Origin: Beroe forskalii | Taxonomy: Eukaryota > Ctenophora > Nuda > Beroida > Beroidae | Reading direction: 5' to 3' | Length of the DNA stretch: 64,000 nucleotides | Assembly: GCA_011033025.1 (NCBI GenBank) | Contig: WFMF01000395.1 | Location: 103,374 to 167,373, forward strand | Part shown: positions 24,881 to 64,000 of the stretch, piece after piece | Layout: each line of letters starts with the position of its first letter | How positions within the stretch are numbered: position 1 is the stretch's first letter | Notes under the pieces: generated by a model | Databases searched by the model: none | Seen by the model: the letters and a program-made list of their open reading frames with translations, nothing else | What the model was told of the DNA's origin: nothing | Program-made: the position numbers and the translations under genes

Positions 24881-27144
24881 AATGAAAACCAAATCTAAAA
24901 TACCATAAACGTACAAAAAACGGTGCGTCTCCCATGTTAACTGGAGCCTTAATTATCTATGACAATGACGTCACTCAGAAAAATATAATTAAGCGCATCT
25001 ATCGACAGACGTTGCCCTGTCTATTTCTTCTGACTGAATGAAATAAAAATTGAATGAAACAAAAATTGAAATTTCATGCCATTTAACAAAAACATTGAAT
25101 AATTCAATATCAGAGCGAATATGGGATGGAATAATTAATTAATTGTTGCCTTAAGGTGGTTAATATGGTTTTTCTGGGCAAGGTTTATAGACTATTATGT
25201 ATAATGGTCAACAATTATCCCATAGTGTAATCTTACATGTAGCCAATTATTACAAAGTCTGGGGCATAGGAATCACACTTGCTGGGGCTATTGTGTGAAC
25301 CGAAACAGAGAATGTAAGACTAAGTCAAGCCAATAGTTATATGTTAAGCAAGGTGAGGAGTTGATTCTAAGTGGCTACTGTGTAAGATTCACTAGGATGG
25401 ACAGTTTTGAGGTGTTGGATAGGGTAGATAAAGTAAATTTTAACTAGAGACTTAAATGAAAATATTTATAAGAACTTTATTGAATCATAATTCACACGCA
25501 TATTTACTTTCAAGCATTTAATTATATATAAACATACGAAATTATACTATATACCTTTCAAACTTACACAACAATACCTTTAGTACCAAAACTATCACCT
25601 GGACAAGGACACCACCTGGACCTGAATTTGGGATAATGTGGTCGTCATTAGTATCTAGACAAGAAGTGGTTACTAGGGTAGTTGCATGTGAATTCTGCAA
25701 TAATTGAATAAGGTTTAGAAATAAGGTTTCGAAATAAGGTTTAAAATCTTATGCTCATTAGCATAAACGACTCAGCCTCAATCAGGGTGCTTTGAGGTTT
25801 TTGATGTTGAAGTCATGTGATGGGAGCCATTCGGCAGATGTTGACTTTGCAATCGGCGCCGATCAGCGCTGATCAGCGCCGATCCACCGCCGATCGGCGC
25901 TGATCAGCGCTGATCGGCGCTGATCGCGCTGATCAGCGCTGATCGGGCCCGATCAGCGCTGATCAGCGACACCGCCGATCAGCGCTGATCAGCGCTGATC
26001 AGCGCCGATCAGAAATTTCAAAATTCTCATCGGCGGTCGTCGGCGCTGATCGGCGCTGATCAGCGCCGATCAGCGCTGATCAGCGCTGATCGGCGATCAA
26101 TCAGCGCTGATCAGCGCCGATCAGCGCTGATGGCCTAAAATCAGCGCTGATTAGCGCTGATCAGCGCCGACCAAAACACCTGCATAAGAGCCTTTGTAAA
26201 CGCCATTTTTCCTCATCGGCGCTGATCAGCGCTGATCAGCGCCGATCAGCGCTGATCGCCAACTTGATAAATTTGAACTGATATGGACATTTGGGCGTGT
26301 TTGCCTCAAAAATATAATTCCTGCTGGCCGTGCAGGTGACATTTTACGGCAATTCCTCGCACAGGGCTGTAACATTAACATCAACAATCACATCAACAAC
26401 AACATGAACCAGTTTTACGATACAGTTATGCATTGACGTGACACTGACAGTAGAACCGTTACAAGTACAACACAGTTTCATTTCCACGACACAGTTACAC
26501 CGTTACGACACAGTAGAACCGTTACGATTAAGTCACACCGTTACGACAGTACGACACAGTAACACCGTTATAACGACACAGTAACATCGTTACTACAAGT
26601 ACACAGTAACACCGTTACGACACAGTAACCGCAGTAACACCCGTACAACACTGTAAGTGTAACACCGTTGTCAAACATTGTCTGACCCCCTCTTGCCTCC
26701 GACGGGGGCACGCCGTCTGAAATAATGTTCAGACGACGTCTCACAATAACACCGTTACGACACAGTAGAACCGTTTCAATACAGTAACAGTAACGTTACG
26801 ACACAGTTTAACACTGTAACGACATTGTAACACCGTTACGACACAGTTACACCTTTACAGCACAATAACGTCGTTACAACACAATAACACCGTTACGAAA
26901 CAGTAAAGCAACTACGACACAGTCACATCGTTATGACACAGTAACACTAATACCGTTACAACACAGTTTCATTCTTACGACACAGTAACACTGTTACAAC
27001 ACGCAGTAACACCATCACGACACAGTAACACCATCACGACACAGTAACACCCTTACGACACAGTCAGTAGTCACGCAGTGACGGCACAGTAACACCGTTA
27101 CGGCGCAGTTACGCAGTTAGTGTTACGACACAGTTACGAAGTTA

Positions 27145-27303
27145 GGGATCGTTCACATATTACGTGATCAATTTTTGGTCGATTTTAACCCCCCCTCCCC
27201 CTCGTAATCAAGTTTACAGTGGTTTACCTGTTACAATAACATGTAACGTAATAAGTCGGAAACCCCCCTCCTCCTATAGGTGACAACGTATTATTTGAAC
27301 GAT
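27145..27303. mobile_element. MITE nested in the left arm of A1
   Basis: The ends are GGGATCGTTCACATATTACG and (complement) ATCGTTCAAATAATACGTTG. The interior has poly-C and poly-G tracts. It is absent from the right arm of A1 but present at the matching place in A2 (63534-63693), so it inserted in one arm of an ancestor and was copied with it. Confidence 0.65.
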
Positions 27304-27964
27304 TATTTACGACACAGTTACGCAGTTACGACATAGTTACACCGTTACGACACACTCACAGTTGACGGGCGATGTCCGACCCTATCAGCAATTCTGAGGT
27401 CCAGCTGTGAAACGTTGCGGCAAGCGCACGAGGGTAGGATATCATACAACGACGTAAGGCTGTTATTACGGTGTTACTGTGTCGTATCGGTGTTATACTG
27501 TCACGACAGCGTGGCTAAATCCTATTTATGCAAACCGCCGATTCGGCGCCGAAGAATCGTCACCTATAGGGGCCTATAGGCGCTTATAATTTTTTATTAA
27601 TGCCTATACGGCGCCTATAGGCGGTACCGCTTTTCGGCGCCTATAGGCGCCGATAGTTTCGATCATCGAATTATCGGCGGTCATCGGCGCCTATAGGCGC
27701 CTATCGGCACCGAAAAGCGCCTATACACCGCTTTTCGGCGACATCAGCGGTTTTCGACCGCCTAAAGGCGCCTTTACGGCCATCACCACCTATAAGCGCC
27801 TATAGGCGCCTATAAGCGCCTATCGTGATATTTTCCATGATCCACGGCCCGGTACGAGTCTGAGTATCGGCGCCTATAGGCGCCGATATTGATCTCTAGC
27901 TATCTGTGTTCTTCCTTATTTTTCGGCGCCTATAGGCGCCGATGAATTAAGGCAGCCCTAAACT

Positions 27965-28490
27965 CCTTAATCGGGCTAGAGTTGGGGTTTGAGTTATGGT
28001 TTGGGTTATGGTTTGGGTTAGGGTTTGGGTTGGGTTAGGGTCTTAGGGTTTGGGTTTGGGTTAGAGTTTGGGTTTGAGTTATGGTTTGGGTTAGGGTTTG
28101 GGTTAGGGTTTGGGTTTGGGTTAGGGTTTGGGTTAGGCTTTGGGTTAGGCTTTGGGTTAGGCTTTGGGTTAGGCTTTGGGTTAGGCTTTGGGTTTGGGTT
28201 AGGGTTTGGGTTAGGGTTTGGGTCAACCCAAAGCCTAACCCAAAGCCTAATCCAAATCCTAACAGTAACCCAAACCCTAACCCTAACCCAAACCCAGAAA
28301 CCCTAACCCAAACCCAAGCCCTAACCCAAACCCTAACCCAAACCCTAACACAATCGGCCCAAACCCAAACCCTAACCCAAACCCTAACCCAAACCCTAAC
28401 CCAAACCCTAACCCAAACCCTAACCCAAACCCTAACCCAAACCCTAACCCAAACCCTAACCCAAACCATTACCCAAACCCTAACTCTAGC
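27965..28490. repeat. Inverted telomere-like core (TTAGGGTTTGGG)n / (CCCAAACCCTAA)n
   Basis: G-rich 12-mers run to ~28222 and then switch to the exact C-rich complement. TTAGGG is the common metazoan telomere hexamer, here alternating with TTTGGG. Open frames of 93-171 codons (WVRVWVRV, LTQTLTQT) are repeat translations. Related tracts occur at 47127-47206 and 59556-59780. Confidence 0.9.
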
Positions 28491-31400
28491 CCAATTTAGA
28501 AGTTTAGGACTGCTTTTATTCATTGGCGCCTATAGGCGCCTATTTAGGACGATGAATTCAGTACTTTGGCTGAAAATTGACTCGAGGCTCAGCTAATAAA
28601 ACTCGTCCTTGCCAATTCAGTACTGCCTTAATTCATCGGCGCCTATGGCGCCGAAAAAATAAGGAAGAACACAGATTCCTAGAGATCAATATCGGCGCCT
28701 ATAGGCACTTATTTACGGCCTGAATGTGTCGTATAACAGCCGTGGTGTGTAGTAACGTCCTTACTGTGTTGTGACGGTGTTACTGTGTCGTAACGTCCTT
28801 ACTGTGTTGTGAAGGTTTTACTGTGACTTAACAATGAAACTGTGTCGTAACGGTATTGCTATGTCGTGACAATGTGACTTTGTCTTAACTGCGTAAAACT
28901 GCGTCGTAGCGGTACAACTGCGTCGTAAGGGTGCTACTGTGTCGTAATGGTGTTACTACGTTACTGTGTTGTAACGGTGTTACTGTGTCGTAACTGCATG
29001 ACTGTGTCGAAACTGCGTGACTTTTTCGTAACTGTGTTACTGTGTTGGAACTGCGTAGTGCGTACAGACTGTGTCGTAACTGCGTCGTAATGGTGTTACA
29101 GCTTTGTCGTAACGTCCTTACTGTGTTTTAAGTGAGCTACTGTGCGGTTACTGTGTCGTCACGATGTTACTTTGTCGTAATGGCGTTATTTGCTATTGTA
29201 TCGTAACTGCGTGACTTCGTCGTAACTGCGTTACTGTGTAGTAACTGCGTAACTGTGTCGTAACGGTGCTATTGTGTCGTAACGACATTAATTTACTGTG
29301 CTGTTAAGGTGTTACTGTTTCGTATAAACGGTGTTACTGTGTCGTAACGGTGTAACTGTGTCATGGGAATGAAACTGTGCTGTAACGGTTCTACTGTCAC
29401 GTCAATGCATAACTGTATCGTAAAACTGGTTTATGTTGTTGTTGATGTGATTGTTGATGTTAATGTTACAGCCCTGTGCGAGGAATTGCCGTAAAATGTC
29501 ACCTGCACGGCCAGCAGGAATTATATTTTTGAGGCAAACACGCCCAAATGTCCATATCAGTTCAAATTTATCGTTGGCGATCAGCGCTGATCGGCGCTGA
29601 TCAGCGCTGATCAGCGCTGATCAGCGCCGATGAGGAAAAATGGCGTTTACAAAGGCTCTTATGCAGGTGTTTTGTCGGCGCTGATCAGCGCTGATCAGCG
29701 CTGATTTTAGGCCATCATGCTGATCGGCGCTGATCGCTGATTGATCGCCGATCAGCGCTGATCAGCGCTGATCGGCGATCAGCGCCGATCAGCGCCGACG
29801 ACCGCCGATGAGAATTTTGAAATTTCTGATCGGCGCTGATCAGCGCTGATCAGCGCTGATCGGCGGTGTCGCTGATCAGCGCTGATCGTCTGACCAGCGC
29901 TGATCAGCGCTGATCAGCGCCGATCAGCGCTGATCAGCGCCGATCGGCGGTGGATCGGCGCTGATCAGCGCTGATCGGCGCCGATTGCAAAGTCAACATC
30001 TGCCAGCCATTCAACATCATCATGAGCATGCTGGTTTTCAAAAAGTGCATTCTTAAGCCTGCCTTTAGGATCACTTAAACTTTTAGAGGGGTCAGGACAG
30101 AATTTTTGATGAAGTGTATTCAGAGGATTGCCGATTGGTACACAAAGTGTCTGAGGGACTGGGGGTTATTAAAGCACTTGAGGTGGCCCTTTTGGAAAAT
30201 TTAAAGAGTGAATGTATTGAAATGGGGCTTTGGAATTTAATAATTTTAAATATATCCATAAAGCAATGGTATGTATATAGGTTTTTTTGACAGTAAGGAT
30301 TTTGTACTTTTTGAAGAGAGGTTTAGTATGTTCTTTCCTATAGAATTCTTCTCCAAGGATTTGATCATGAATTGTCGGCAATTGCAGCAACAGGTTTTAT
30401 TATTGACATAAGCATTATAGTCACCAAAAGGACCCTTATGCATTTTTTCTGTATAATAAATAGCTCTGAAATTTTGCATCTGATATGCACAGATATGCAG
30501 TATGCAAGATGGATTCGAAGGAAGAGAGTATGGTAAAGGCTAGGGTGGAGTCCTCGGAATACACTTTTATTCTAGAAAGAGTGCAAATGGCGTAATTAAG
30601 TTTTCGTTTGCATTCGAGGATGTGCTTATCCCAGTTTAGATCTTGGTCAATAAACACTCCAAGGAATTTTGTTTCAGCAACTTTCTTGATTTCTTGTGAA
30701 TTGATGAACAATTTAAAATCACGAATGTTTTCAGAATTGTTTTTGTCTTAGGTTTGAAGTGTGTATATAATAACATTTTGATTGATTAATGTGCAATTTA
30801 TTCAGGATCATATACTGATGTACTGATTTAAGTAGTAAGTTTGCTTTAGAATATGCCATCTTTGCAGTCTTTCCAGTTATAAAAATGTTAGTATCATCAG
30901 TAAAGAGGACAAATTCACCAAGTTTGGAGCAATTTGAAAGGTCATTTATGTAGATTAGGAAGAGTAGTGGACCAAGGACAGATCCTGTGGCACCCCAAAT
31001 TGAATAGCAAGTTTGTGGATTGGTGGTTCAGTACATCAGTATATTGACTCCTGTTAGTTAGGTATGATTTCATAAGTGAATGTGATGCTCCCCGTATATT
31101 CCATAATGGTACAGCTTATCCAGCAGTGTTCCATGATCAATGGTGTGTCGAAAGCTTTACTCAGGTCAATAAATATACCAAGGACATGTTGTTTCTTGTT
31201 TATGGCTGATTCAATGTGTGCAATTGAATAGTTCAGTGCATGACTGGTTGAGTGAGACTTTCTAAAACCATATTGATTTTGGTGGAGTATGTTTTGGGGA
31301 AGTGAAGAAATTATAAAGTCGGGAATAGATAAGTTTTTCAAAGATTTTTCCAAATATAGGAAGTGTTGAGATTGGCCTATAATTTTCTATTGAGTCAGGG

Positions 31401-39635: not shown

Positions 39636-40020
39636 TTGATTTAAATGTTGTTATTATTGCTGTTGTTGTCGTTATATTTGCTGTTGTTGCTGTTTTGTTG
39701 GGCAGAGCATGGGTTCTTTGACTATCCTTTGACGTTTCCTTTTATCGGCTTTCGCCTGATTGGCTCGGGTAAGCCAAACGTATATAAAATGGTTAAATTA
39801 TATTTGTGTTTGAGAAAAGAGAATTTGAAAACATGTTATCAAGCTGACAGTGAGGCGAAAATATCGAAAAAATATGAACATGTAGCGTTTTAAGCCGTTT
39901 TATAACTGAAAAAGCAAAGTGTAAATTGGAAGCAGCCTACTAGCTGTGTGTTTAGTGGGACCAGAGCTACATTACAAGTTACACGCATGAAAATACTCGC
40001 AGCATTATATCATGAATTAT

Positions 40021-42195
40021 GGCTAAAAAATGGGTGGACTTAACTCTGCCGCGGATCCGCTGCGGACCCGGTGGACCCACTGTGGGTCCGCCGCGGACTC
40101 CACTAAAGTCCACCATAAAAAATTTTGGTGGACTTTGGTGGACCCGCAGCGGACTTTTCGAAACTCCGCCGCGGAGTGGTGGGTCCACTGCGGGTCCGCT
40201 CGGGCTCCACCGCGCACTGGTGGACAGTCCACCGAAAAAGTCCACCAAAAAAGTCCACCGTAGACTAAAATAATTGTGGAGGTAAGTCCGCCGCGGAGTC
40301 AGTGGACTCCACCAGCAGAGTCCACTGGCGGAGTCGAGTCCACTGGCGGACTCCACCAGTGGAGTCCACTGGTGGACTCGACTCCGCCAGTGGACTCAAC
40401 TCCGCCAGTGGACTCGAATCCGCCAGTGGACTCCGCCGGTGGAGTCCACCAGTAAACTCCACTGGTGGAGTCCACCAGTGGACTCCTCCATAAGGGCTGT
40501 ATGGTGCTTGGAAAGGAGTGCCATGTGTACACATAGCTTTCTCAGATTCGGTCGATATTTCAAAGGGACCATCCATAAAGGGCGTCGCAATGAGAGGGGA
40601 GGGGTGAGTAGACCCTCTCAGATTTGAATGATATTTCAAAATCAACTTGGGGCCATCCATATTAAATTATTAAAGGATGTCCGCAAAGTTTTGGCCATTT
40701 CAGACCCCTCCCTCCCCCTTGTCCGCAAACGTCCGCAATCCAGAAACCCCTAATTTCAATGCTTTTTCCAGCTGGAATTGGAAAAAGGGTGTGTCCGGTG
40801 CGAACGTGAAATTAAGGATTTGACCAAAGATAAACACGTCACACCTCTTTTTAAGACAAATGGGGGATAATTAGATTACCACCAAAAAGTTGATATTAGC
40901 CCAAATCTGAGAGGGTCCTGGGGGATTCTGGCCAATACGTCTCCCATGTAAACGGGAGCCTTCATTTTCCATGACAATGACGTCACTCAGAAAAATATAA
41001 TCAAGCACATCTAGCGCTTTGAAGGTTATGGTCGGGATTAGGGTCAGGATTTGTTAGGTTTAGGGTCAGGATTAATAAGGTAAGGGTTTTGGTAAGAGTC
41101 TCGGTAAGGTTTGGGATAGAGAAAAATTGACCTTCGGATCTGTGACGTCACTCAGCCCCGTTTACCTTATCGGACATAATTATCACGGACATTAAATTCA
41201 CGCTGAGCACTTCAGCTTGAATATTAATGTCCGTGAAAATTTTGTCCGTGATACTATTGTCTGTAATATTCAGGTCCGTGAAAATTAAGTCCGGCATTTC
41301 GTCCTAAAATTTATAGGGTAGAGACACAAAATTTCTGACCTCCTCTCTTGAAATGCACAAATAATAGAATTTGTAAGGAAATTATGCTTCTTTTAAATGC
41401 TTAGTACCTGCAATATGGAAATTTATCATATTTATTAAAGAAAAATATTAAAAAAATCTTCAATTCAAGCATTCAAGTGGGGGAAAAATGGGAGAAATCG
41501 AGCTGATAATTTTGAAGATTTTTTGAAATTTGAAGTGGCTGGATCGAGCGTGAATATTAATGTCCGTGAAGTTTTATGTCCGTGAAACTAAAGTGATAAT
41601 TATGTCCGATAAGGTATATCGGACATAATGTGGACGTCCGCAATTCATGGAAATTTTGAGCGATTTGACGGCTATTTCACCAGAAAATCATGGAATTTCG
41701 GGGCCAAAAATGTTATCCGCGAGAGGACTCCGCTGGTGGAGTTGGACTCCACCTGTGGACTCCGCTGGTGGACTCCACCTGTGGACTCCGCTGGTGGAAT
41801 CCACCTGTGGACTCCCCTGGTGGACTCCACCTGTGGACTCCGCCGGTGGACCAAAGTCCGCTGGTGGAGTCCACCTGGGGAGTCCACCGGTGGACAAAAA
41901 CTCCGCGGTGGACTCCAATCCACGGCAGACTTTTTTCCCTGTTGGAATTTTTTTAGGTGGACTTTTTTGGTGGACTTTTTCGGTGGACTGTCCACCAGTG
42001 CGCGGCGGAGCCCGAGCGGACCCGCAGCGGACCCACCACTCCGCGGCGGAGTTTTGAAAAGTCCGCTGCGGGTCCACCAAAATCCACCAAAAAAATTTTA
42101 TGTTGGACTTTAGTGGAGTCCGCAGCGGACCCGCAGCGGGTCCACCTGGTCCGCAGCGGGTCTGCGGCGGAGTTAAGTCCACCCATTTTTTAGCC
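40021..42195. mobile_element. Foldback element B, GTGGACTCCAC satellite arms
   Basis: Termini GGCTAAAAAATGGGTGGACT and the exact complement. The 8-bp duplication TGAATTAT lies at 40013-40020 and 42196-42203. Outer arms are near-perfect inverted repeats (tccgctgcggacc, ccgccgcggag). Inner parts are arrays of GTGGACTCCAC(C/T)GGTGGAGTC, a self-complementary word. The core 40500-41720 holds other inverted-repeat elements. No transposase; long frames (161-164 codons) are satellite translations. The undisturbed target in the neighbouring tandem copy confirms the borders. Confidence 0.92.
41163..41610. mobile_element. MITE nested in foldback B
   Basis: CCTTATCGGACATAATTATC at the left is matched by gataattatgtccgataagg at the right. 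The interior repeats the words 'attaatgtccgtgaa'. It inserted into a GGGGCCATCC / gacgtcactcag block inside the core of B. Confidence 0.6.
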
Positions 42196-43164
42196 TGAAT
42201 TATAAAACCGTTATCAATGAATTACCATCTATAAAAGGCTGAGTGTGATACACAAATTACACGCAGGTGATTCAGAATTAAAATAGACACATCTTTTAGG
42301 AATAAGATAAGCCGTATAAAAACTTGTCATAATATATGTTAGTGTATAGAAAGAATTGAATTAACAGTGGTTTGAGAGTTGAATGGTTGGATTGATTAAT
42401 GTTTAGTTTGTTTTCAAATGCTTTCAAGGAGCAGGCGGTCAGTCTGGCGGATCTGACATGTGTACCAGAATGTGTGAATGACAATGCAGTCTAAGATCGG
42501 GTAAGCCAAACGTATATAAAATGGTTAAATTATATTCTTGTGTTTGAGAAAAGAGAATTTGAAAACATGTTATCAAGCTGACAGTGAGGCGAAAATATCG
42601 AAAAAATATGAACATGTAGCGTTTTAAGCCGTTTTATAACTGAAAAAGCAAAGTGTAAATTGGAAGCAGCATACTAGCTGTGTGTTGAGTGGGACCAGAG
42701 CTACATTACAAGTTACACGCATGAAAATACTCGCAGCATTATATCATGAATTATGAAACCGTTATCAATGAATTACCATCTATAAAAGGCTGAGTGTGAT
42801 ACACAAATTACACGCAGGTGATTCAGAATTAAAATAGACACATAAAATCTTTTAGGAATAAGATAAGCCGTATAAAAACTTGTCATAATATATGTTAGTG
42901 TATAGAAAGAATTGAATTAACAGTGGTTTGAGAGTTGAATGGTTAGATTGATTAATGTTTAGTTTGTTTTCAAAAGCTTTCAAGGAGTGGGCGATCAGTC
43001 TGGCGGATCTGACATGTGTACCAGAATGTGTGAATGACAAAATTGTTTATTTCATTTTATTTTATTTTGGAACCTAGTGAAATATACACTACAAATGTTA
43101 ATAGTGCAAATTGGTGCATATAGACAAATGAAATTTTGAATTTATTTGTTGATTTGGCAAAGAT

Positions 43165-43435: not shown

Positions 43436-44609
43436 ATACAAGTTCGGTCAGTTTGAATATTCTGCTGTCTGCATGTGCTTGGGTACTTTCTAATTGTTGT
43501 GCTCTAACTTTCTAAAATACCTTGACTTAGGATAGGCCTGTCTGTCAGCCTTTGAAATATCAAGCTTGGATTGTGGAGGAGCTCTCCAAATCATGAAATC
43601 TTTCTTCTGCTTCCAATCAACTCAGCTATCAGTTCAACCTATTAAAATGCTCACATGATCCTGGGACTGAGTCCCCTTTGATGCTGGTAGGGCCTCCTTG
43701 ACCCTGGGAAAGCCTCCATGGTCCTGGAAGGGACTCCTTGATTCTAGGACAGAATCCTTCACAGGATGCAGTCCTTGATCCTAGGTGATATTCTAATTCA
43801 AAGGTCTGAATTTTGTTCCTGAGATTGTATTCTTCATCCTAGAAAAGTCTCCTTGATCCTGGCCTGGGATAGTCTTCTTGATCCTGGCCTGGGATAGTCT
43901 TCTTGATCCTGGAAGATTTTCCTTGATCCTGGAAAAAACTCCATGATATTCTTTGATCCTAGAAAATGGATCCTTGATCCTGCAAAATTGTCCTTGATCC
44001 TGAGAGAGCCTCCTTGACTCTGAGAGAGTCACCTTAATCCTGAGAGAGTCTCCTTGATCCTGAGAGAATCTCTTGATCCTGAGAGAGTCTCCTTTGTCCT
44101 TGAAGAGTTTTCCTGATCCTGGGAGATTTTTCTTGATCCTGATAGGCATAATCCACGATTTTTGCAAGTACACCTGAATTCGCCGCGAATTCGCCGCGAA
44201 TTCAAGTGAATTCAGGTGAATTCAGGTGAATTCGCGGCGGAGTTCGCCAAAAAAAATTTTTGGCGGACTCCGCCGAGTCCGCCGGAGTTCGCCGCGGACT
44301 CTGGCGAATTCACCTGAATTCACCTGAATTCGCCGCGAATACACGCGTATTCGGTGTACTAGTTCGCCAATTTTCCAGTTCACCCAGGCGAACAAGTTCG
44401 CCGCGAATTCGCGGCGAACTGGTGTCCGCCGCGAATTCGCGGCGAACTCAGGTGAACTTGGGCGAACTCAGGTGAACTCAGTTCGCGGCGAATTCACCTG
44501 AACTTTGAAGGAACTTTGTCACGTCTGGCACGCTTATGTGAGACTAAGATGCAATTCACAATGTCTACCATATGCGTGTCGTCATGGATCCAAAGAACCT
44601 TAGGGGACT

Positions 44610-45096
44610 GGGAGCCGTCACATATTACGTCATCACTCGACGGGAGGGAGGGGGTTTTCAAATGCTGACAGGTGATGACAGGGGGGAGGGAGGGGGTTTA
44701 AGGTTTGCCGACGTCAGCGAAAATATTGAATTTTCTAAATTCGAAAATACGATATCCAAACTTTTTCGTTCATAATATTTTGTTTTGATGTACCCATTTC
44801 ATTTCTTTGATATGATATCTATATTTCCAAACTAACTGGATGTTCGTCTATGACAATTAGAACCATTTTTTTAAACGAATTTAACGATATGAATCACACC
44901 ACACGTACATAGTTGATATTTCATTTCGGTTGTTTTGATTCGAAATAGTCAAAATTTGTTTTGAAAAAGGAGGGGGGTTTGGTCAATGCTGACGTCATCA
45001 TGGGGGAGGGGGTCAGCCAATGATGACAAGTGATGACAGACAGGGGGAGGGGTTGAAAATGGGCAAAAAGTGATGACATAATATGTGACGGCTCCC
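44610..45096. mobile_element. MITE nested in foldback C
   Basis: The ends are GGGAGCCGTCACATATTACG and (complement) GGGAGCCGTCACATATTATG. Inner blocks (ggtgatgacagggggga and complement) extend the pairing. It resembles the MITE nested in A1 and A2 in size and in its 'cacatattacgt' end, so both may belong to one superfamily. Confidence 0.7.
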
Positions 45097-46021
45097 TTAG
45101 GGTTAGGGTTTTGATTAGGACACTAGAAAAAATTGACATCAAGATCTGTGACGTCATTGTCAGGTGTTGCCTGACCCCCTGACGACTTAGGACATCGCTG
45201 ATTCGCTGAGGACAAAAACCAGTATTGGCGCATATAGGCGTAAATGGCTAAGTCCTTGTGGGTGAGGAGAATGCAGACCGTGGGGAGGCACCAGGATCTG
45301 TCTTCTGTGAGGGATGAGAGCTCTGCATGGATGACAAGGATCTGGGGTTAGGACTTGAAGGTTCCATCGAGGAACCAGCAGGAGCTTTCTGCTAGGATCG
45401 TGAGTTTGTCACTGGTAGCCCGGATGATCACCCGAGGCGTTGTCGTAGAGGAGCATATCAGCTTGTCTGAGGGTCCGGCAGTCTGCAGGGAGGGTTTCTA
45501 CAGAGTGGGTATGAGGTTCAGGACACTAGCAGCTGCCAGCTCCGCTTGATCCACCTCCAAGCTTGTCTCCCATCTGTCGTGTCAAGGGTTTGCAGACTTC
45601 ATGAGACCTCGTTACCTAAGTGGGACGATATCCTGACGAATTAGCATGGGGTTGTGCTCGCATGAACGTCCCGTATCACGTATCCCCTCCGATGACATGA
45701 GCCAACAAGCGGTATGGGATAGAGTAAATTGTGATGTGGCGGATCACATGCTGACACCGTGTATCGTGAGTCCCCCAGTGTCTCCACAATGATACATCGG
45801 ATCGAGCATTATTGTACCCTCCATACGGGCTCTGTTATCTGGATTAACCGAGATATTCTCGGTATAAATCGATCCAGGCTTTAGGTAGTTTATATAAAGT
45901 GAAGAGGCTCCCGACCTAGAGTCCACCCTGCATGGGGATCTCCCGACCCAGAGTCCACCCTGGTGTGCCACCGCCGACCCAGAGTCCCCCGACCTAGAGT
46001 CCCCCGACCTAGAATCGGTTC

Positions 46022-46185
46022 CCCATGTTGACTTTGCAATCGGGATCTGGTTAGAGCAAAGCGCCGACCAAAACACCTGTATAAGAAGAGCCTTTGCAAT
46101 TGCGATAACGCAATTTTCCTTCATCGCCGATCGCTAATTTGTTAAATTCGTACTGATTTGGGCTTTTGGGCAAGTTTCCCTCCGG
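46022..46185. mobile_element. Relic of foldback family A
   Basis: The words tgttgactttgcaatcgg, cgccgaccaaaacacctg, taagagcctttg and 'ttgttaaattcgtactgat' match, in the same order, the left arm of A1 and A2. The GATCAGCGCT satellites are lost. The relic is enclosed by foldback C. Confidence 0.6.
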
Positions 46186-46794
46186 CGAACTCAGGCGGAC
46201 TCCGGCGAACTCAGGCGGACTCCGGCATCTGAATTCAGGCGAACTAGTTCGCCGCGAATTCGCCGCGAACTGGCAGTTCACCTGGGTGAACTGGAAAATT
46301 GGCGAACTAGTACACCGAATACGCGTGTATTCGCGGCGAATTCAGGTGAATTCAAGTGAATTCGCCGGAGTTCGCGGCGGACTCCGGCGGAGTCCGGCGG
46401 AGTCCGCCAAAAATTTTTTTTGGCGAACTCCGCCGCGAATTCACCTGAATTCGCCTGAATTCGCTTGAATTCGCGGCGGGTTCGCGGCGAATTCGGGTGT
46501 ACTTGCAAAAATCGTGGATTATGCCTCCTGATAGGATTCTTTTCCTTCTGAGAGATTCTCCTTGATCCTGAGAGAGACTCCCTGATCCTGAGAGAGTCTC
46601 CTTGATCCTGAGAGAGTCTCCTTGATCCTGAGAGAGTCTCCTTGATCCTGAGAGAGTCTCCTTGGTCCTGAGAGGGCCTCCTTGATCCTGAGAGAGTCTC
46701 CTTGGTCCTGAGAGGGTCTCCTTGATCCTGAGAGAGTCTCCTTGATCATTGGAGAGTCTCCTTGATCCTGAGAGAGTCTCCTTGGGTCGGACCT

Positions 46795-47115: not shown

Positions 47116-47126
47116 GCTGCAAACTA

Positions 47127-47445: not shown

Positions 47446-47481
47446 TTTTAGTAATTTCTAGCACCATTCCAAACGATTTTT

Positions 47482-48356
47482 GGTAAAAGTGTCACAAGAG
47501 TTGTGATTTTTGTCCAATGGATCCATTGGATCCATCATGTCCAATGGACATGTCCAATGGACGTCCATTGGACATCCATTGGACATCCATTGAACATGAT
47601 GTCCGGTAAAAACGTCCAATGGTGTTCAATGGATCCAATGGATCCATTGGATCCATTTTTGATGTTCAATGGACATGTTCAATGGATCCAATGGATGTTC
47701 AATGGATCCATCTGAGTGGATCCAATGGACACAATCACCAAACATGGTTTGGTAGATGGACATCAGACTGTTATTTTTGTTCATTGGATCCATTGTGTCC
47801 GTTGGATCCAATGGATCCATTGTGTCCATTGAACACCATTGGACATGTCCATTGGATCCATTGGATCCATTGAACATTAGTCCATTGGATCCAATGGATC
47901 CTTTTTTGTCCATTGGACACAATGGATCCATTGGACACAATGGATCCAATGGACACCATGTACAATGGATCCAATGGATCCAATGGACATGTTCAATGGT
48001 GTTCAATGGACACAATGGATCCATTGGATCCAATGGACACAATGGATCCATTGAACAAAATACCAGACTGATGTCCATCTAGCAAACCATGTTTGGTGAT
48101 TGTGTCCATTGGATCCACTCAGATGGATCCATTGAACATCCATTGGATCCATTGAACATGTCCATTGAACATCAAAAATGGATCCAATGGATCCATTGGA
48201 TCCATTGAACACCATTGGACGTTTTTTACCGATGGACATCATGTTCAATGGATGTCCAATGGATGTCCAATGGACGTCCATTGGACATGTCCATTGGACA
48301 TGATGGATCCAATGGATCCATTGGACAAAAATCACAACTCTTGTGACACTTTTACC
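47482..48356. mobile_element. Foldback element E, CCATTGGATCCAATGG arms
   Basis: Termini GGTAAAAGTGTCACAAGAGT and the exact complement. The 8-bp duplication CGATTTTT lies at 47474-47481 and 48357-48364. Almost the whole element is permutations of TCCATTGGA, GGATCC and CATGTCC joined into larger palindromes such as CCATTGGATCCAATGG. The halves are inverted around ~47910. At 875 bp it is the shortest and cleanest member of the set. Long frames on both strands (MDPLDPL-type) are satellite translations. Confidence 0.93.
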
Positions 48357-48364
48357 CGATTTTT

Positions 48365-52446: not shown

Positions 52447-53374
52447 TAAAATAAACTACGATAATTGTATAACATAATTAGGGACAGTCCAAATATATAT
52501 GCCTAATACATAATGGAATTGGTTGGTTTCAAGCCATTCCCTTCCGTAACAATCCAAAGTCTTATCTATAAAGGTGTATAACAAACAAATATACAGTAAA
52601 GGTTAATAACAAACATAAGATAAATACTGAACATCGATTTTCTAATCCAAAGATCAGAGTGATTCACAGACTAAACTGTGAATCATCAGAGTCCAATGTC
52701 TTATCTATAGAGGTGTATGGGTATACTACAAACATAACAAAATACTGTATTCGATTTTCTAATTCAAAGATTGACTTATAATACAGTCAAATCTGCCTCA
52801 AAAAGGGGTAAAAAGTGGACAAATTCTACACCAAGCGATTTTGCATGGATTCTATGGTTTTTTGCATAAAAAATCGATCTAACAACTTTCCACACCTCTC
52901 CGGAGTGTGGAAAGTGCCGAAAAATCGATTTTTAGCTGAGGCGCAGCCGACTGATATGTAAAAAAACGTATCCCGGCTTAGGAAGGTCGTAGAGACTTCA
53001 TCTTGGGCGGAAAATGTACGCAATGAGCATGTTTATATACAATTGTCAACAAAGATATGCCCTAAAATGCTCAGGAACGGAGTTACAGGCGAAAAACAGA
53101 TTTTTGGGCAGGCGCCAAGACCTGCATAAGGCGAATTTTGTATCTCAGTCCAGGAAGGTCGTAGAGACTTCATGTTGGGCGGAAAATGTGCATAATGGCC
53201 ATGTTTATATGCAATTGTTGGCAAAATATGCCCTAAAATGCTAAGGAACGGAGTAACTTGGGCGAAAAAACTGATTTTTGGGCCAACGCAAGACCTGATT
53301 TAGGCGAATTTTGTATCTCAGTCCAGGAAGGTCGTAGAGACTTCATCTTGGGCGGAAAATGTGCGCAATGGCCA

Positions 53375-53670
53375 TCTCTAATATAATTTCGCATTCTCTG
53401 TTGTTTGTGCGTAACGGCGGAAACATCTTCGGAACGCGCGCGCATTTACGATTTGTGCGGGTTACCATGGTGACACGTGCAGGGAGAATTGCGCACGCGC
53501 TCATTTCTGTTAATGGTGTTTTGATTAGGTTGCGCGATCTTTAATAACTCTTGAACGGATCGGGGGTTTTTGATGCGGAAAAAATTTTTATTAAATTTGA
53601 ATTGTATTGGTTGAAATTTGCGAGCTTTTAGTGCAGAGCTGTGTATTTGCAGGCACAACGGGCCTGCTAG
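53375..53670 (+). mobile_element. Helitron-like element 1 of 4 (296 bp)
   Basis: Starts TCTCTAATATAATTTCGC and ends with the hairpin GCAGGCACAACGGGCCTGC followed by TAG, so the 3' end is CTAG. Preceded by A (53374). The array inserted between A and T, as Helitrons do. The non-coding body has cgatcgg-type text and gcgcgcg runs. Confidence 0.75.
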
Positions 53671-55125: not shown

Positions 55126-55915
55126 TGTTTATATACAATTGTTCACAAAAATATGCCCTTAAATGATAAGGAACGGAGTAACGGGCGAAAAACTGATTTT
55201 TTGGGCCAACACAAGACCTGCATAAGGCGAATTTTGTATCTCAGTCCAGGAAGGTCGTAGAGACCCCATCCCGGGCGGAAAATGTGCGCAATGGCCATGT
55301 TTATATATACAATTGTTCACAAAAATATGCCCTAAAATGCTAAGGAACGGAGTAACGGGGGAAAAACTGATTTTTTGGGCCAACACAATACCTGATTTAG
55401 GCCAATTTTGTATCTCAGTCCAGGAAGGTTGTAGAGAGTTCATCTTGGGCCGTGGGCGGAAAATGTGCGCAATGGCCATGTTTATTCTGTACGACTTGCT
55501 GATAAAAGAGTAAAAGGATAATAAACATGTGCCCTGAAATTCTCACTGGGAAGAAAGTTATAGGCGAAAAATGAAATTTGGCGATGGTTTGAGACGATTT
55601 TCATATAATCACTGTCCAGTAAAAGAGACGGGTAACGGACATTTGATCTCATGACATTTCATCTCACGGCACTTTATCTTGTAATATTTCAACCCCACGC
55701 AAAGGTAAGGATCTGGGTTAGGGTAATGGTTAGCGTATGGGTAAGAGTTAGGATTCGGAGTAAGGTTTTAGGGTCAGGACAGGGAGATGAAGTATCCTGA
55801 CATGAAATTTCGTACACCCATAGAGACTTCCGGCCGAGCAGAAAATAATTGGAATGGTCAACTCAGGAAGTAGAAGAGAGTACAGAAATGTGTCTAAAAC
55901 GAGGTAACGATTAAC

Positions 55916-56335: not shown

Positions 56336-58348
56336 GAATAAATGTCTGACCAAGATAGAAAAATCTTCTATATCAGGCCTGTTAGCTGCCAAAAATTAGT
56401 TTTTTCGCCCGTTACTCCGTTCCTGAGCATTTTTTAGGGCATATTTTGTCAACAATTGTATATAAACATGGCCATTGCGCACATTTTCCGCCTAAGATGA
56501 AGTTTCTACGACCTTCCTAGACTGAGATACAAAATTCTCCTGAAGCAGGTCTTGCGCCTGCCCAAAAAATCTGTTTTTCGCTCGTAACTCCATTCCTGAG
56601 CATTTTAGGGCATATTTTTGTTGACAATTGTATATAAACATGGCCATTGCGCACATTTTCCGCCCAAGATGAAGTCTCTACGACCTTCCTGGACTGAGAT
56701 ACAAAATTCGCCTAAATCAGGTCTTGCATCTGCCCGAAAAATCTGTTTTCCGCCCGTTACTCCATTCCTAAGCATTTTAGGGCATATTTTTGTTGACAAT
56801 TGTATATAAACATGCTCATTGCGCACATTTTCCGCCCAAGATGAAGTCTCTACGACCTTCCTGAGCCGAGATACAATTTTTACATATCAGTCGGCTGCCT
56901 CAGCTAAAAATCGATTTTTGGCACTTTCCACACCCGGAGGGGTGTGGAAAGTTGTTAGATCGATTTTTCATGCAAAACTATAGAATCCATGCAAAATCGC
57001 TTGGTGTAGAATTTGTCCACTTTTAAATCCAATTTTGACTGTATTATTAAGAGACAGAAGAGACTAAACTGTTATCTTGAAAATGCAAGGTCCTCCCTTG
57101 TCAACGGCAATGAGGTTTTTCCATCAGCAGGTGGCGAGAAAGAACGGAGTGGTTTCGGTTATAAATTACAATAATGCTATTGCAGTAGTTGCATGTCAAA
57201 CGCATTATACATAACACCTTATTAGCAAGTTTATGCAGTGTACTTGTTCAAAATGCCTATAGTCTGGTGTACCGTAATAAAGTGGTCATAAAAGCTAAAG
57301 TAGGAATGAACATTTCATTACCACACGAAATTTTACCACACGTGATAATATTACACTTGGGTGGTGGAAGGCAAGTCATATCGCATTAAGACAGAGGTTT
57401 TTTATTACAGGGGTTGGTACTTTTTACGAATTACTAACCTGAATTATGCACCGACCTTACTCGTTAAAAAAAATTCTGAGGTTATGATATGATAAATGCA
57501 CAACTGGCTCTACCGTGTGTAAGGCATTATTATGCACTGTACCACTGAACCAAAATGAAATATTTGGTCTAAATAATTCAAATAATATCACAATTCACAA
57601 ACCGTAGCATTCACTCGGAGACGGTGATATGTATTTAACGGAGTTCAGCTTGTCATTTTTGGAACCCAAATTATTTCTGTTCTCGCCCGGACAAAGCCTT
57701 GAGAACACCTTTCTATAACTGAAATCATGGTGATGTATAATATAATGTGCTAAAGAATGGATGGTTATAATATATATTATTACCCTCCCGTGGCTCAAAC
57801 TCCAGTGTGATAATTATCGATATATCACTCCTTTATAGGACTATAACTGAACATTGGCGGAATAATAGAGCAGAATATCGTTAAATGAATTGTTGATTTT
57901 ATAAAGGAGCATTCGAAAATCTATAAAAACGTTGAATTCAGACGAGGGTCGTCAGACCCGAGTGGGAGGGAGTACTGTTTTGTCGGGTAATAATACAATT
58001 AACAAACTCATGGATCGTGTGATATCGAAAATTGTCAAACTCGGCTGACGCCTCGTGTGATAATTATCGATATAACACTCCCATTCGTTTGTTAATCGTA
58101 CAATGTACTTTAAGGGCTTATTGAGACGAACACGCAGACAATTTTGCCACGGAATTTTACCACGGAATTATACCACGGAATTCCGCGATGGTGGTCGGGC
58201 TTCTTGGATACTGCCTGAATTTCTTGTACAACCAAAAGCATGTAGGAAGTAGGAACTAGGGATAGCCAAAATGCTGGGATTTGTGTAAAAGTGGCATGTG
58301 TTGTAGGGCATAGGCTGTTTAATTGAGATTTGGAATACTCTTCTTTGT

Positions 58349-58694: not shown

Positions 58695-59109
58695 AGGATT
58701 TAAAAGTTTAATGATTTAATGAGCAGCCCAATGACTTCTGGCGATAACGCTTGTCCTAATGATAAAGTCGTGTGTACACAAAATTATCCTCCTTGGTTCC
58801 TTGACTCCTTACATCGCTCAAATTGCGTAATAAATAGAGGAGAGGTTTAAAATGATTCCTTTATGATGTATTGTTGAAATACCTGAGGTGTCGCCACCTC
58901 TGAGATCGGTGTCTGAAATTTCCACAAAACCAAAATTTGTACGCGTGTGATACTGATTTAACAGTATATTCACCTACGTACATGGCGCCGCGCGATCGGA
59001 AATTTCAGAAGAATTCTCATTTCTCGAGATGGCGACACCTGCCTACAACTTCTTCCTTATTTTAGTATTTTAGAAATCTAGTTTCCATGAGTTTAATCGT
59101 CAAAAAATA

Positions 59110-60570
59110 GGCATAATAGGCCGCGAACTTTAGTTCGCCGCGAACTCGGGCGAACTCAGGCGAACCCGCGCGAACTCCGCGCGGGTTCGCAAGCGTTCGC
59201 CGACAGTTCGCCGGACGTTCGCCGAACTCCGGGCGAACTCGAGCGAACTCAGGCGAACCCGCGCGGAGTTCGCCGCAAACTGGCGAACTAGTTCGCCGCG
59301 AACTAGTTCGCAGCGAACTAAAAATTTTTGGTTGGCGAACGATTGTTCGCCGGCGAACAATCGTTCGCGGCGAACTAGTTCGTGGCGAACAAGTTCGCGG
59401 CGGACTAGTTCGCCGCGAACTAGTTCGCCAAGAACTAGTTTTTTCTAAGTTCGCGGCGAACTTCATTATTCATTTTATGCTGCGAACTTGTTTGTCATCA
59501 ACTATAACAATTCCGCTGCAAACTGCCAAACTAGTTCACCTCGAACGATTGTTCGCCAACCCAAACCCTAACCCGAATCCAAACGCGAACCCAACCCGAA
59601 CCCAACCACGAACCCTAACCCAAACCCTAACCCAAACCCTAACCCAAACCCTAACCCAAACCCTAACCCAAACCCAAAGTCCAAACCCAAACCCTAACCC
59701 AAACCCAAACCCTAACCCAAACCCTAACCCAAACCCAAACCCTAACCCAAACCCTAACCCAAACCCTAACCCAAACCCTAAGGGGCCATCCATAAAGGAC
59801 GTCCGCAATGAGGGGGGAGGAGGGGGTCTGCCCAATGCGGACGTTTGTGGACATAGGGGGGAGGGGGTGTTTGGTCAAATGCGGACGTCCGCAATTTTTG
59901 GAAGTTATGGTCGATTTGACGGTTATTTCACAAGAAAATCGTGAAATTTCGGGCCCAGAATGATGACTCAAAAGATTTTTAAGAAAAGTGCGGACGTCCT
60001 GTGGGGAGGGAGGGTTTCTGAAATGCGGACGTTTGCGGACAAGGGGGAGGGAGGGGTCTAAAATGCTCGAAATTTTGCGGACGTCCTTTATAGTTCATGG
60101 ATGGGCCCTAACCCAAACCCAACCCAAACCCTAACCGAAGGCGAAGGGGTCAGACAACGTCGGACAAGAGTTCGCCGCGAACTAGTTCGCCGCGAACTTA
60201 GAAAAAAGTAGTTCGCGGCGAACTAGTCCGCCGCGAACTAGTTCGCTGCGAACTCGTTCGCCGCGAACGAGTCCGCCGCGAACTCCAAAAAATCGTTCGC
60301 CAACCAAAAATTTTAAGTTCGCTGCGAACTAGTTCGCGGCGAACTAGTTCGCCAGTTTGCGGCGAACTCCGCGCGGGTTCGCCTGAGTTCGCTCGAGTTC
60401 GCCCGGAGTTCGGCGAACGTCTGGCGAACTCTCGGCGAACTTCAGCGGAGTTCGCCAAGGAAAAAAATTGGCGAACTGTCGAGACGCTTGCGAACCCGCG
60501 CGGAGTTCGCGCGGGTTCGCCTGAGTTCGCCCGGGTTCGCGGCGAACTAAAGTTCGCGGCCTATTATGCC
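59110..60570. mobile_element. Foldback element D, TTCGCCGCGAACTAGTTCGC arms
   Basis: Termini GGCATAATAGGCCGCGAACT and its exact complement. The 8-bp duplication AAAAAATA lies at 59102-59109 and 60571-60578. Arms are strings of GTTCGCGGCGAAC and AACTAGTT, which form nested palindromes. The core has a (CCCAAACCCTAA)n tract (59556-59780, 60108-60140) split by a MITE. It shares GGCATAAT ends with foldback C. No transposase. Confidence 0.92.
59782..60107. mobile_element. MITE inserted in the telomere-like core of foldback D
   Basis: GGGGCCATCCATAAAGGACG with 'tccgca' at the left pairs with 'tgcggacgtcctttat' and 'catggatgggcc' at the right. CCCTAA is on both sides, but it is also the repeat unit, so a target duplication cannot be proved. 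Related pieces lie in the core of foldback B (40563-40700, 41630-41720). Confidence 0.7.
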
Positions 60571-60579
60571 AAAAAATAA

Positions 60580-62360
60580 GAAAGCAGGAAATTAACGAGG
60601 CCACATAGAAGACCCAATATCTGGAGAGGAAGTTGACCTGACCCACTGCAGTTGTCTTAGTACACTAGTACCCATGGTTGCAACTAGTTTGTGTCATGAA
60701 ACATCTACCTCTTTAAAGATCTTTTCTGGGCCCATTTCCCAAATACCAGGTTTTCAGATGTTGCGACACAATTTTAGCCTCGAAACAGCAACACAAGCCA
60801 GTAAAAACATTTAAGCATATTCCTGATACTAAAATGAAGTTGAAACTTTGACACACTGGGATGAGTTGGTGGGCGGTGGCTCTCATGGGAGGTTACTAAA
60901 TGACTTCCTCCCCATGATTATCCAAATACTTGACCTTATTTTTGCATCAAGTGGACAAAACAACGTAAAGAATCCTAAATTTGAATCAAGGAAGTGTATT
61001 TTAGTATTTTATTCTCTTGATTAAGATGAAGTAACTTTTAGAAGACTAAAGCACATCCTTGATGCATAAAATGGCTGAAAATTTTAATACCGGATGCATC
61101 AAAAATAAACCTTACAGAAGTTGAGTAATGTATACTCTAGTAGCAGGGTGTAGTTGAGTGTGCACTTTGTTGGCCACAAAGTTTCTCGGTTCAGGGTCGT
61201 TTATTATGTTATTCTGCACCAGAATCACCTAGGTACGCAATTTGTATCGCTACTATGGACCCTGTGGGGCCATTTTTGTAATCCCCCTCAGGCGCGTATA
61301 GTGAAAATTCATATCTCCGTCCAGGAAGGTCGTAGAGACTTCATTTTTAGCTCAAACGAATCGCAATGACCATGTTTTTATGCAATTTTTATCGCGAATA
61401 TGCCTTAAAATGCCCAGGAAAAAAGTTATGGACCAAAAACTGGTTTTTCCGTGTATCGCTAGCAAATTACACATGTTGTTTTGATATCTCGGTCCAGGAA
61501 GGTCGTAGAGACTTCGTTTTGAGATTTAAAAAATCGCAATGACCATGTTTTTATACAATTTTCAATGTAAATATACCATAAAGTGCTCAGAAAAATAGTT
61601 ATGGGCCAAAAAGTGGTTTTTCAGTGTAGCGCAAGCCTATATAAAGATATAATGCTGCATAAGAATTGGGATTTTGCATCTCAGTTCAAGAAATACCTCC
61701 AGACTCTATCTTTTAACCTAAAAACAGGGTGGTTTAATGTTAATAAAGCAAAATTTTAAGCCAGATTCAGTCAGGTACTGTATGCAATTTTATTGCTGTT
61801 CAGATCCCTGGTAATCTATTTTCTTAATTGCCCTATGTTGCTTACTGCATAGTGAAAATTTGCATCTTGGTCCAAGAAGATCATAGAGACTTGGTCTTAA
61901 TAAGCTTGAAAATCTGAAATGGCCATGCTATTCATATTCAATTTGTTATAACACTAGTAAGTATGTTATACATAGAAGGACTCAGGGAAATGTTATTAAG
62001 TACCTACTCATGATATTTACTTTTAATTTGGACCATGTGCTTTGGTCAACCTGTGTGATGGAGGATTCTTGTAAATCGTTCCAGGAGCACAAGAGACTTC
62101 GTTTCTTGTACTACCGAGGATATTTCAGGCAATTCTGAACACGGATCACCTAGGTAGCTAGATAAACCCTGCACTGTGTCCTTTTTTCTTAATTGCCCAA
62201 TGGCATTTCTTAAGACCTTAAGTTTTACAGAAATAAATAAAATTCATATCTTTGACCAGTAAGATCCAAGGTAGTACAGAAATAAACACTTGTCTCATAT
62301 ACTGTACTCATCAAGGAACTTCCTAGCTAAGGCCTCCTAGCTACGATCACCTAGATAGTG
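60580..62360. other. Gene-poor stretch with diverged tandem units
   Basis: From ~61310 to 61900, about three diverged ~185-bp units share 'ccaggaaggtcgtagagact' and 'aatgaccatgttttta' with the tandem units of the TA-flanked element at 52.9-56.9 kb. No gene is supported. Confidence 0.5.
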
Positions 62361-62369
62361 TCTTCTAGC

Positions 62370-64000
62370 GGCAGATGTTGACTTTGCAATCGGCGCCGAT
62401 CAGCGCTGATCAGCGCCGATCCACCGCCGATCGGCGCTGATCAGCGCTGATCGGCGCTGATCAGCGCTGATCAGCGCTGATCGGGCCCGATCAGCGCTGA
62501 TCAGCGATACCGCCGATCAGCGCTGATCAGCGCTGATCAGCGCCGATCAGAAATTTTAAAATTCTCATCGGCGGTCGTCGGCGCTGATCGGCGCTGATCA
62601 GCGCCGATCAGCGCTGATCAGCGCTGATCGGCGATCAGACTGCGCTGATCAGCGCTGATGGTCTAAAATCAGCGCTGATCAGCGCTGATCAGCGCCGACC
62701 AAAACACCTGCATAAGAGCCTTTGTAAACGCCATTTTTCCTCATCGGCGCTGATCAGCGCTGATCAGCGCCGATCAGCGCTGATCGCTAACTTGTTAAAT
62801 TTGAACTGATATGGACATTTGGGCGTGTTTGCCTCAAAAATATAATTCCTGCTGGCCGTGCAGGTGACATTTTACGGCAATTCCTCGAACAGGGCTGTAA
62901 CATTAACATCAACAATCACACCAACAACAACATAAACCAGTTTTACGGTACAGTTATGCATGGACGTGACAGTAGAATCGTTACAAGTACAACACAGTTT
63001 CATTCCCACGACACAGTAACACCGTTACGACACAGTAGAACCGTTACGATTAAGTCACACCGTTACGACAGTACGACACAGTAACACCGTTATAACGACA
63101 CAGTAACATCGTTACGACACAGTAACCGCAGTAACAACGTTACAACACAGTAAGTGTAACACCTTTGTCAACCATTGTCTGACCCCCTCTTGCCTCCGAC
63201 GGGGGCGTGCCGTCTGAAATAATGTTCAGACGACGTCTGACAATAACACCGTTACGACACAGTAGAACCGTTAAAAATACAATACAGTATGAGTAACACC
63301 GTTACGACACAGTAGAACCGTTAAAAATACAATACAGTATGAGTAACACCGTTACGACACAGTAGAACCGTTACAATACAGTAACACCGTTACGACACAG
63401 TAACACTGTTACAACACGCAGTAACACCATCACGACACAGTAACACCCTTACGACACAGTCACGCAGTGACGACACAGTAACACCGCTACGACGCAGTTA
63501 CGCAGTTAGTGTTACGACACAGTTACAAAGTTAGGGATCGTTCACATATTACGTGATCAATTTTTGGCCGATTTTAACCCCCCTCCCCCTCGTAATCAAG
63601 TTTACAGTGGTTTACTTGTTACAATAACATGTAACGTAATCAGTCGGAAACCCCCTCTCCTTCTATAGGTGACAACGTATTACTTGAACGATTCTTTACG
63701 ACACAGTTACGCAGTTACGACACAGTTACACCGTTATGACACACTCACAGTCGACGGGCGATGTCCGACCCTATCAGCAATTCTGAGGTCCAGCTGTGAA
63801 ACGTTGCGGCGAGCGCACGAGGGTAGGATATCATACAACGACGTAAGGCTGTTATTACGGTGTTACTGTGTCGTATCGGTGTTACTGTAATGACAGCGTG
63901 GCTAAATCCTATATATGCAAACCGCCGATTCGGCGCCGACAAGCGCCGAATCGGTGCCTATAGGGGCCTATAGGCGCTTATATTTTTTATTAGGCGCCTA
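62370..64000. mobile_element. Foldback element A2 (left part, truncated by window end)
   Basis: Starts GGCAGATGTTGACTTTGCAA and follows A1's left arm in order: GATCAGCGCTGATC satellite (~62393-62785), the cacctgcataagagcc spacer, GTTACgacacaGTAAC satellite, nested MITE (63534-63693), the gggcgatgtccgaccc block, and the beginning of the CGCCTATAGGCG satellite. The eight bases before it are CTTCTAGC. The right end lies outside the window. Confidence 0.9.

Follow-up and report, generated by a model that had tools for sequence, protein, structure and literature searches.

The contig WFMF01000395.1 of the ctenophore Beroe forskalii (assembly GCA_011033025.1) contains, between positions 103,374 and 167,373 of its forward strand (hereafter the window, 64,000 nucleotides, numbered from its first letter), five complete foldback elements, named A1, B, C, E and D, whose inverted arms consist of short palindromic words. 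Foldback transposons with satellite-like arms, such as TU of the sea urchin and the P-like Galileo, were recognised decades ago, but it has usually been unclear by what they are moved and for what reason their arms are repetitive. Our analysis suggests, with a probability of about 0.72, that families A to E are non-autonomous foldback members of the Merlin superfamily which are moved in trans, and that their arms are arrays of putative transposase-binding sites placed about one turn of the DNA apart. The arms look more like a landing strip for an enzyme than the product of a new repeat-making process.

Foldback elements of the window and their genomic copies

All five complete elements start with 5'-GG and are flanked by exact 8-bp target duplications (Table 1), and with the second copy of family A, which begins at 62370, six such elements lie within the 64-kb window. 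The terminal inverted match extends over 60 of 60 bp in A1 and E and over 59 of 60 bp in D, and is unbroken over the first 26 bp in B and the first 30 bp in C. We also scanned the window blindly for target duplications of 5 to 12 bp, requiring an exact end seed of 8 bp, at least 15 inverted matches among 18 positions and a span of 60 to 9,000 bp, with self-complementary duplications excluded. At 8 bp the scan returned five matches, which were exactly A1, B, C, E and D, all starting with GG. At 5, 6, 7, 9, 10, 11 and 12 bp it returned 31, 1, 9, 2, 0, 2 and 0 matches (45 in total), and none of the 44 with a recorded end dinucleotide had GG ends. The five elements claimed by the initial annotation are therefore real, with coordinates, GG ends, inverted termini and duplications all exact. 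Searches of the window for tRNAs and against Rfam gave no matches.

Table 1. Foldback elements of the window, transposase-bearing elements with exact 8-bp duplications, and word groups with a base period of 11 bp
Feature	Coordinates	Strand	Target duplication	Ends, words and remarks
A1	25833-30004 (with duplications 25825..30012)	.	AGCCATTC, both sides	Ends GGCAGATGTTGACTTTGCAATCGGC
A1 left arm	25852..26257	.		Array of ATCAGCGCTG, period 10, palindrome coverage 0.70
A1 centre	27973..28484	.		Telomere-like GTTAGGGTTTGG array, then an inverted one
A1 right arm	29579..29985	.		Left arm in inverted copy
B	40021-42195 (with duplications 40013..42203)	.	TGAATTAT	Ends GGCTAAAAAATGGGTGGACTTAAC
B arms	within 40021-42195			GTGGAC/GTCCAC words in both orientations
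C	44145-46525 (with duplications 44137..46533)	.	TCCTGATA	Ends GGCATAATCCACGATTTTTGCAAGTACACC
C arms	within 44145-46525			Words GAATTCGCCGC and CAGGTGAATTCACCTG
E	47482-48356 (with duplications 47474..48364)	.	CGATTTTT	Ends GGTAAAAGTGTCACAAGAGTTGTG
E arms	within 47482-48356			CCATTGGATCCAATGG-type words
D	59110-60570 (with duplications 59102..60578)	.	AAAAAATA	Ends GGCATAATAGGCCGCGAACTTTAG
D arms	within 59110-60570			GGCGAAC/GTTCGCC words, related to C
Second A copy	62370..64000	.		Truncated by the window end; 85% identity to the first 1.77 kb of A1
L011			CAATTTTC	Transposase-bearing
L013			GCAAATGT	Transposase-bearing
L014			CAAAATGT	Transposase-bearing
L015			AAATTTCC	Transposase-bearing
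L019			GAGCATTC	Transposase-bearing
L020			GACGATTT	Transposase-bearing
L021			AGGGATCG	Transposase-bearing
L025			GAAATACT	Transposase-bearing
L103			TAAGAGAA	Transposase-bearing
L107			GCCAAGTG	Transposase-bearing
L126			GGCTTTTG	Fetched by ends; transposase pieces
M3				Word GGAACTTAGTC, base period 11
M4				Word GGCGGACCTAA, base period 11
M5				Word GCACACCTGGG, base period 11
M6				Word ACGCCACGGTG, base period 11
M7				Word AGTCTCGGAGA, base period 11
M8				Word CCCGGACCCTT, base period 11
M11				Word TGGCGTGATAC, base period 11

The genome searched was the 216-Mb assembly of 1,134 contigs. With up to three mismatches allowed, the ends matched 112+113 places for A, 97+105 for B, 91+85 for C, 62+60 for D and 245+259 for E, while the reversed control patterns of the five ends gave no match. 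From the matches listed we fetched 63 places, nearly all as end pairs, and 62 of them had both ends (the exception was L078). The initial annotation would have been refuted if most copies in the genome lacked 8-bp duplications; in the sample, exact 8-bp duplications flank 50 of the 62 copies (E, 15/20; D, 9/10; C, 9/9 plus 2/3 long ones; A, 6/11; B, 9/9). Note that this rate applies to well-kept copies, since those sampled mostly have paired perfect ends. Two further A copies, L083 and L085, have exact 9-bp duplications; they and L086 share flanks, apparently representing one insertion in a duplicated stretch, and are thus not independent. The flanks of L038 are unrelated. In the duplications of 39 copies of E, D and C, A is favoured at positions 2 to 5 and T at positions 6 and 7. 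Copies of A range from 70 bp (L084) to 4.17 kb (A1), the full-length ones being 4,060 to 4,172 bp, and those of D from 1,461 to 1,888 bp, apart from two short ones.

Different families cluster in the genome: among the matches listed, plus-strand perfect ends at 194 places gave 17 pairs of different families (A, B, C and D) within 10 kb, against 1.3 expected if they were independent, and 15 pairs against 1.2 expected when the contig of the window was left out. Segmental duplication may lie behind part of this clustering. In one case (L075, within G000:C436:756837-758802), a D copy has a 255-bp C copy between its ends, and this C copy is flanked by an exact 8-bp duplication of its own, an insertion of one family into another.

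Merlin transposases and the superfamily assignment

The Merlin-type transposase domain PF12762 (DDE_Tnp_IS1595) has 35 matches in the genome, and in all four transposase proteins that were scanned it was above the cut-off and the sole domain matched. We examined 29 of the 35 loci with about 1.5 kb on each side, together with two copies fetched by their ends, and GG ends with exact 8-bp duplications were found in 11 of these 31 transposase-bearing loci (Table 1). The ends of the eleven elements are GGCAGTATCC, GGCAGTCTTG, GGCAGTCTGG, GGCAGTATTA, GGGCATAG and GGTAACTC. Among the 29 loci, ten have both ends and the exact duplications; four have both ends and no duplication (L017, L018, L023 and L108, one end being altered in L018 and L108); and 15 are unbounded, many of them with one end. 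The two copies fetched by their ends contain transposase pieces; the duplication of the second, L125, has one mismatch.

In the window elements, short perfect palindromes cover 0.36 to 0.70 of the left arms as against 0.04 to 0.13 in shuffled sequences (z, 4.7 to 13.9). Under the same test, one of ten control tandem arrays from the window reached z 4.8 (14581-14814) and the other nine at most 1.9, and one of three control non-repeat stretches was at 2.9. Palindromic arms were found at the transposase loci L013 (z, 7.4), L011 (4.7), L021 (3.4) and L022 (2.3), and non-palindromic ones at L015, L018, L020, L023 and L025 (z, -0.9 to 0.7). L011, which represents family M1, has an open frame of 308 codons, counted from stop to stop, and its arms consist of AATAGACGTCTATT words. 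The arms of family M2, which includes transposase-bearing copies, consist of CCGGCTAGCCGG; among ten other M2 copies that were fetched, some, measuring 96 to 1,329 bp, have the M2 ends and gave no transposase match. When copies were chosen by end pairs, exact duplications were found in 6 of 10 for M2 and 1 of 4 for M1. Three M2 copies on different contigs (L113, L114 and L115; 132, 132 and 96 bp) have a common duplication, ATGTATCC, and are accordingly not independent; the M2 array may have changed after a stretch of the host genome was duplicated.

The genome thus holds transposase-bearing Merlin elements of the same plan, including two families, M1 and M2, with palindromic arms. With their long inverted arms rich in tandem repeats, A to E belong to the foldback structural class, and because they share their features with the transposase-bearing elements, they would be members of Merlin. 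This assignment, already proposed in the initial annotation, is well supported by the GG ends, the duplications in the sampled copies and the Merlin transposases inside GG-ended elements of the same architecture. The annotation had also suggested looking for a Merlin transposase gene with ends like those of the window elements. Such transposases were found in elements of the same plan, with GG ends and 8-bp duplications, although none has the ends of A, B, C, D or E. No transposase pieces were found in the window or in the copies of A to E examined, and, by eye, no Merlin domain match lies at an A to E end pair among the roughly 100 end places listed per family. Three 5.2-kb copies of C were considered as candidate autonomous elements; they proved to be C with an inserted sequence and have no transposase.

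The foldback shape and the 8-bp duplications would also fit Mutator-like elements (MULE) or hAT foldbacks, of which the genome has 46 (PF10551) and 23 (hAT-dimer, PF05699) domain matches, and most foldbacks seem to be members of Mutator according to PMC4079207. However, GG-starting ends accompany the exact 8-bp duplications in the 50 copies, and the transposase-bearing elements with matching features are Merlin, which makes a MULE or hAT origin very improbable. By eye, neither a MULE nor a hAT transposase match was found inside the A to E end pairs among the end matches listed, about 100 per family.

Period, direction and origin of the word arrays

A short-period word array is located near the transposase in 28 of the 29 loci, the exception being L012. 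In the unbounded loci L022, L027 and L028, the arrays are near the transposase and only putatively inside an element. We sorted the transposase loci by word and end into eleven groups, M1 to M11, and determined base periods by a uniform rule for Tandem Repeats Finder (TRF): among arrays of at least four copies, the smallest period that reached half of the best score or more was taken. By this rule, 7 of the 11 word groups have a base period of 11 bp, as compared with none of the 17 arrays of the window that lie outside the elements (p = 2.8e-4). Counted as single arrays, 28 of 65 in the transposase loci and none of the 17 in the window have period 11, arrays of the same family not being independent. 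An 11-bp unit also appears in the TRF listings for M9 and M10. These figures replace an earlier count (9/11 groups against 1/36 arrays, p = 3.8e-7), for which the TRF settings had been unlike on the two sides. The recount weakened the period rule, and the direction test, new for five groups, came as a strengthening. The commonest words are confined to one strand in M3 to M11, nine groups in all (nearly so in M8, in which one of five words is +4/-17), whereas in A to E, M1 and M2 the words occur on both strands in similar numbers. The one-way direction coincides with the 11-bp period, which was found in 7 of 9 one-way groups and in none of 7 two-way groups (p = 0.003, or 0.04 if E, with periods of 9 and 11, is counted as 11). 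The strongest spectral peaks of B, D and E are at 10.7, 10.4 and 10.2. The helical reading of the arrays is strong for the one-directional ones and only suggestive for the palindromic ones.

A passive origin of the arrays, as proto-satellites grown by chance inside transposon ends and without function, would account for the variable copy lengths (4,060 to 4,172 bp in full-length A and 1,461 to 1,888 bp in D) and for the three M2 copies that differ in array length in spite of their common duplication. It also has precedents, since PMC8101967 already reads tandem repeats inside Merlin as proto-satellites, and Tetris foldbacks seeded a satellite according to PMC4079207. We regard it as unlikely. 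Against it stand the base period of 11 bp common to seven divergent word groups, and seen in none of the 17 other window arrays of at least four copies, and the word-bearing array in nearly every transposase locus.

The initial annotation had explained the palindromic satellites by a mutational process, for example hairpin-templated repair of foldback arms, acting between the Merlin ends. We compared the two arms of 53 copies (4 A, 9 B, 11 C, 9 D and 20 E), oriented by their middle parts. The closest match of an arm was a same-side arm of another copy in all 18 cases for B, 19/22 for C, 17/18 for D, 23/40 for E and 3/8 for A; the partner arm was the closest match, alone or jointly, in none for B and D, two for C, 7/40 for E and 2/8 for A. 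Of the private variants, 294 were confined to a single arm and 11 were mirrored on the other, seven of the latter in one E copy. The observed agreement between the arms at shared polymorphic sites was close to that expected under independence (B, 34 and 32.2; C, 67 and 64.4; D, 24 and 25.3; E, 165 and 163.1; A, 1 and 2.0). The scarcity of mirrored variants and this near-independence indicate that the arms mostly evolve apart after insertion, and arm-to-arm conversion as a live process left only a trace in the 53 copies. The comparison detects copying between arms only from the rise of each subfamily onwards, and does not bear on how palindromic units first came about.

Repair from a hairpin would agree with the strong palindromy at the scales of the word, the array and the element, with the arms that are nearest to their own partner in E and A, with the 3 of 20 E copies whose arms have no mismatch over the compared 230 bp (gaps ignored), and with the two of 11 C copies whose arms are nearly identical (0.011 and 0.015). 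The one-armed variants and the B arms, all of which match a same-side arm best, argue against it, and the one-directional arrays in nine transposase-bearing word groups would not be favoured by any hairpin process. As the generator of the palindromic satellites, hairpin repair is thus improbable, and this part of the annotation was not supported.

The annotation had further regarded the palindromic words as unrelated and independently recruited. This was borne out only in part, since C and D are related: their first 8 bp are identical, and they have a significant number of 7-mers in common (42, against 10.1 and 15.6 expected). In a test of shared 7-mers over 55 pairs, a common ancestry of all words was rejected, the sharing being clear for C and D only; nominal values for B and C (p = 0.01), L015 and L020 (p = 0.02), and C and L020 (p = 0.045) would fail a correction for multiple tests.

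Returning to the binding arrays, we propose that A to E are foldback families similar to miniature inverted-repeat transposable elements (MITEs) and belong to the Merlin superfamily of cut-and-paste DNA transposons, and that Merlin transposases coded elsewhere in the genome would act on these non-autonomous elements in trans. The ends are cut and 8 bp (occasionally 9 bp) of the target duplicated, as the footprints show. The arms would be arrays of transposase-binding words spaced by roughly one turn of the helix, with a separate word for each lineage of transposase. The words would run one way in some families, with arrays at or near 11 bp, and both ways in others, giving the look of palindromic satellites. 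Ordinary slippage at the tandem repeats, together with internal deletions, would lengthen and shorten the arrays, which would be kept near the ends by selection for the loading of transposase. The short copies of A and M2 retain their ends and some words, as expected of an array beside the ends. More tentatively, Merlin transposases could load onto long, family-specific and helix-phased arrays of sites, with a spacing of about 10.5 to 11 bp under selection and a word that drifts along with the transposase; alternate sites might then have been flipped in some lineages, and the 21-bp double word of M1 would be an example of the palindromic arrays that result.

Several observations weigh against the proposal of binding arrays. 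Besides the missing transposase-bearing element with the ends of any of A to E, the sorting into word groups was done by eye with the data already known, and word relatedness between families is mostly non-significant. Under the uniform TRF rule, the period is 21 in M1, mostly 12 in M2, 61 bp in M9 and 22 bp in M10. A to E are not strictly at 11 bp, with TRF periods of 10 (A), 13 (B), 10 (C), 10/15/20 (D) and 9/11 (E). The spectral peaks are at 9.7 and then 11.0 in C, at 5.1, 9.6 and 10.6 in A, and at 6.3 in M2, and some control arrays also have a peak at 10 to 11.

Comparison with known elements and further observations

Arrays of subterminal repeats are known from hAT elements (Ac/Ds) and from CACTA elements, in which a short motif, present in both orientations, is bound by a protein that the element codes. 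The arms described here likewise have a short motif that is repeated many times close to the ends; they differ in the superfamily and in the period close to a helical turn, which recurs across unlike words.

Merlin was first described by Feschotte 2004, as cited in PMC8101967, which gives GG ends, 8- or 9-bp duplications, a DDE_Tnp_IS1595-type transposase and inverted repeats of 24 to 462 bp, with internal tandem repeats in some families and several families per genome. The elements of B. forskalii agree with the Merlin elements described there in their ends, duplications, inverted repeats and internal tandem repeats, in the presence of several families in one genome and, where a transposase is present, in its type. 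Unlike those, they have arms which are word arrays, palindromic in seven families (A to E, M1 and M2), and an 11-bp period in most of the transposase-bearing word groups. In the limited literature covered, we found no description of palindromic-word arms or of a common 11-bp array period in Merlin. New here are the group-specific arrays in transposase-bearing Merlin elements and the 11-bp period in 7 of the 11 word groups.

Long inverted arms of tandem repeats, non-autonomous copies and arms of unstable length are shared with FB, Galileo and Tetris of Drosophila, as far as these are described in PMC4079207, which assigns most foldbacks to Mutator with exceptions and mentions those of sea urchins. 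The short palindromic words and the Merlin ends set the present elements apart from that description. According to the same paper, the arm repeats of Galileo contain extra transposase sites, a precedent which supports the reading of foldback tandem repeats as binding arrays.

Several families with a transposase and others lacking one, all of one plan, coexist in the genome of B. forskalii, and their arrays tend to vary in sequence while the period is kept, so that the idea of arm repeats as transposase-binding platforms is directly testable here. It would explain palindromic satellites with no need of a special repair pathway. If the helix-phased loading were true, foldback satellites would be fossil records of the binding specificity of transposases, and the pairs of word and transposase would be a ready-made code to read.

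Other repeats accompany the elements in the window. Telomere-like TTAGGGTTTGGG arrays occur as the inverted pair in the centre of A1 (27973-28484), once in D (59558-59778) and once just before E (47126-47202), and TTTGGG and CCCAAA are also abundant in three other full-length A copies. D contains at 59782-60108 an apparent nested element with inverted ends (GGGGCCATCCATAAAGGACGTCCGC ... CATGGATGGGCCC) and TAA flanks, which we take to resemble a PIF/Harbinger MITE; related stretches are present in B (40649-40749 and 41627-41709). A 20-bp satellite, CTGAGAGAGTCTCCTTGATC (rotation allowed), is located on both sides of C (43953-44142 and 46548-46784), suggesting that C was inserted into an array of it. 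Finally, similar satellite units of 172-174 bp form four short arrays (52980-53375, 55130-55485, 56401-56876 and 61311-61636), at least some of which are in opposite orientation.

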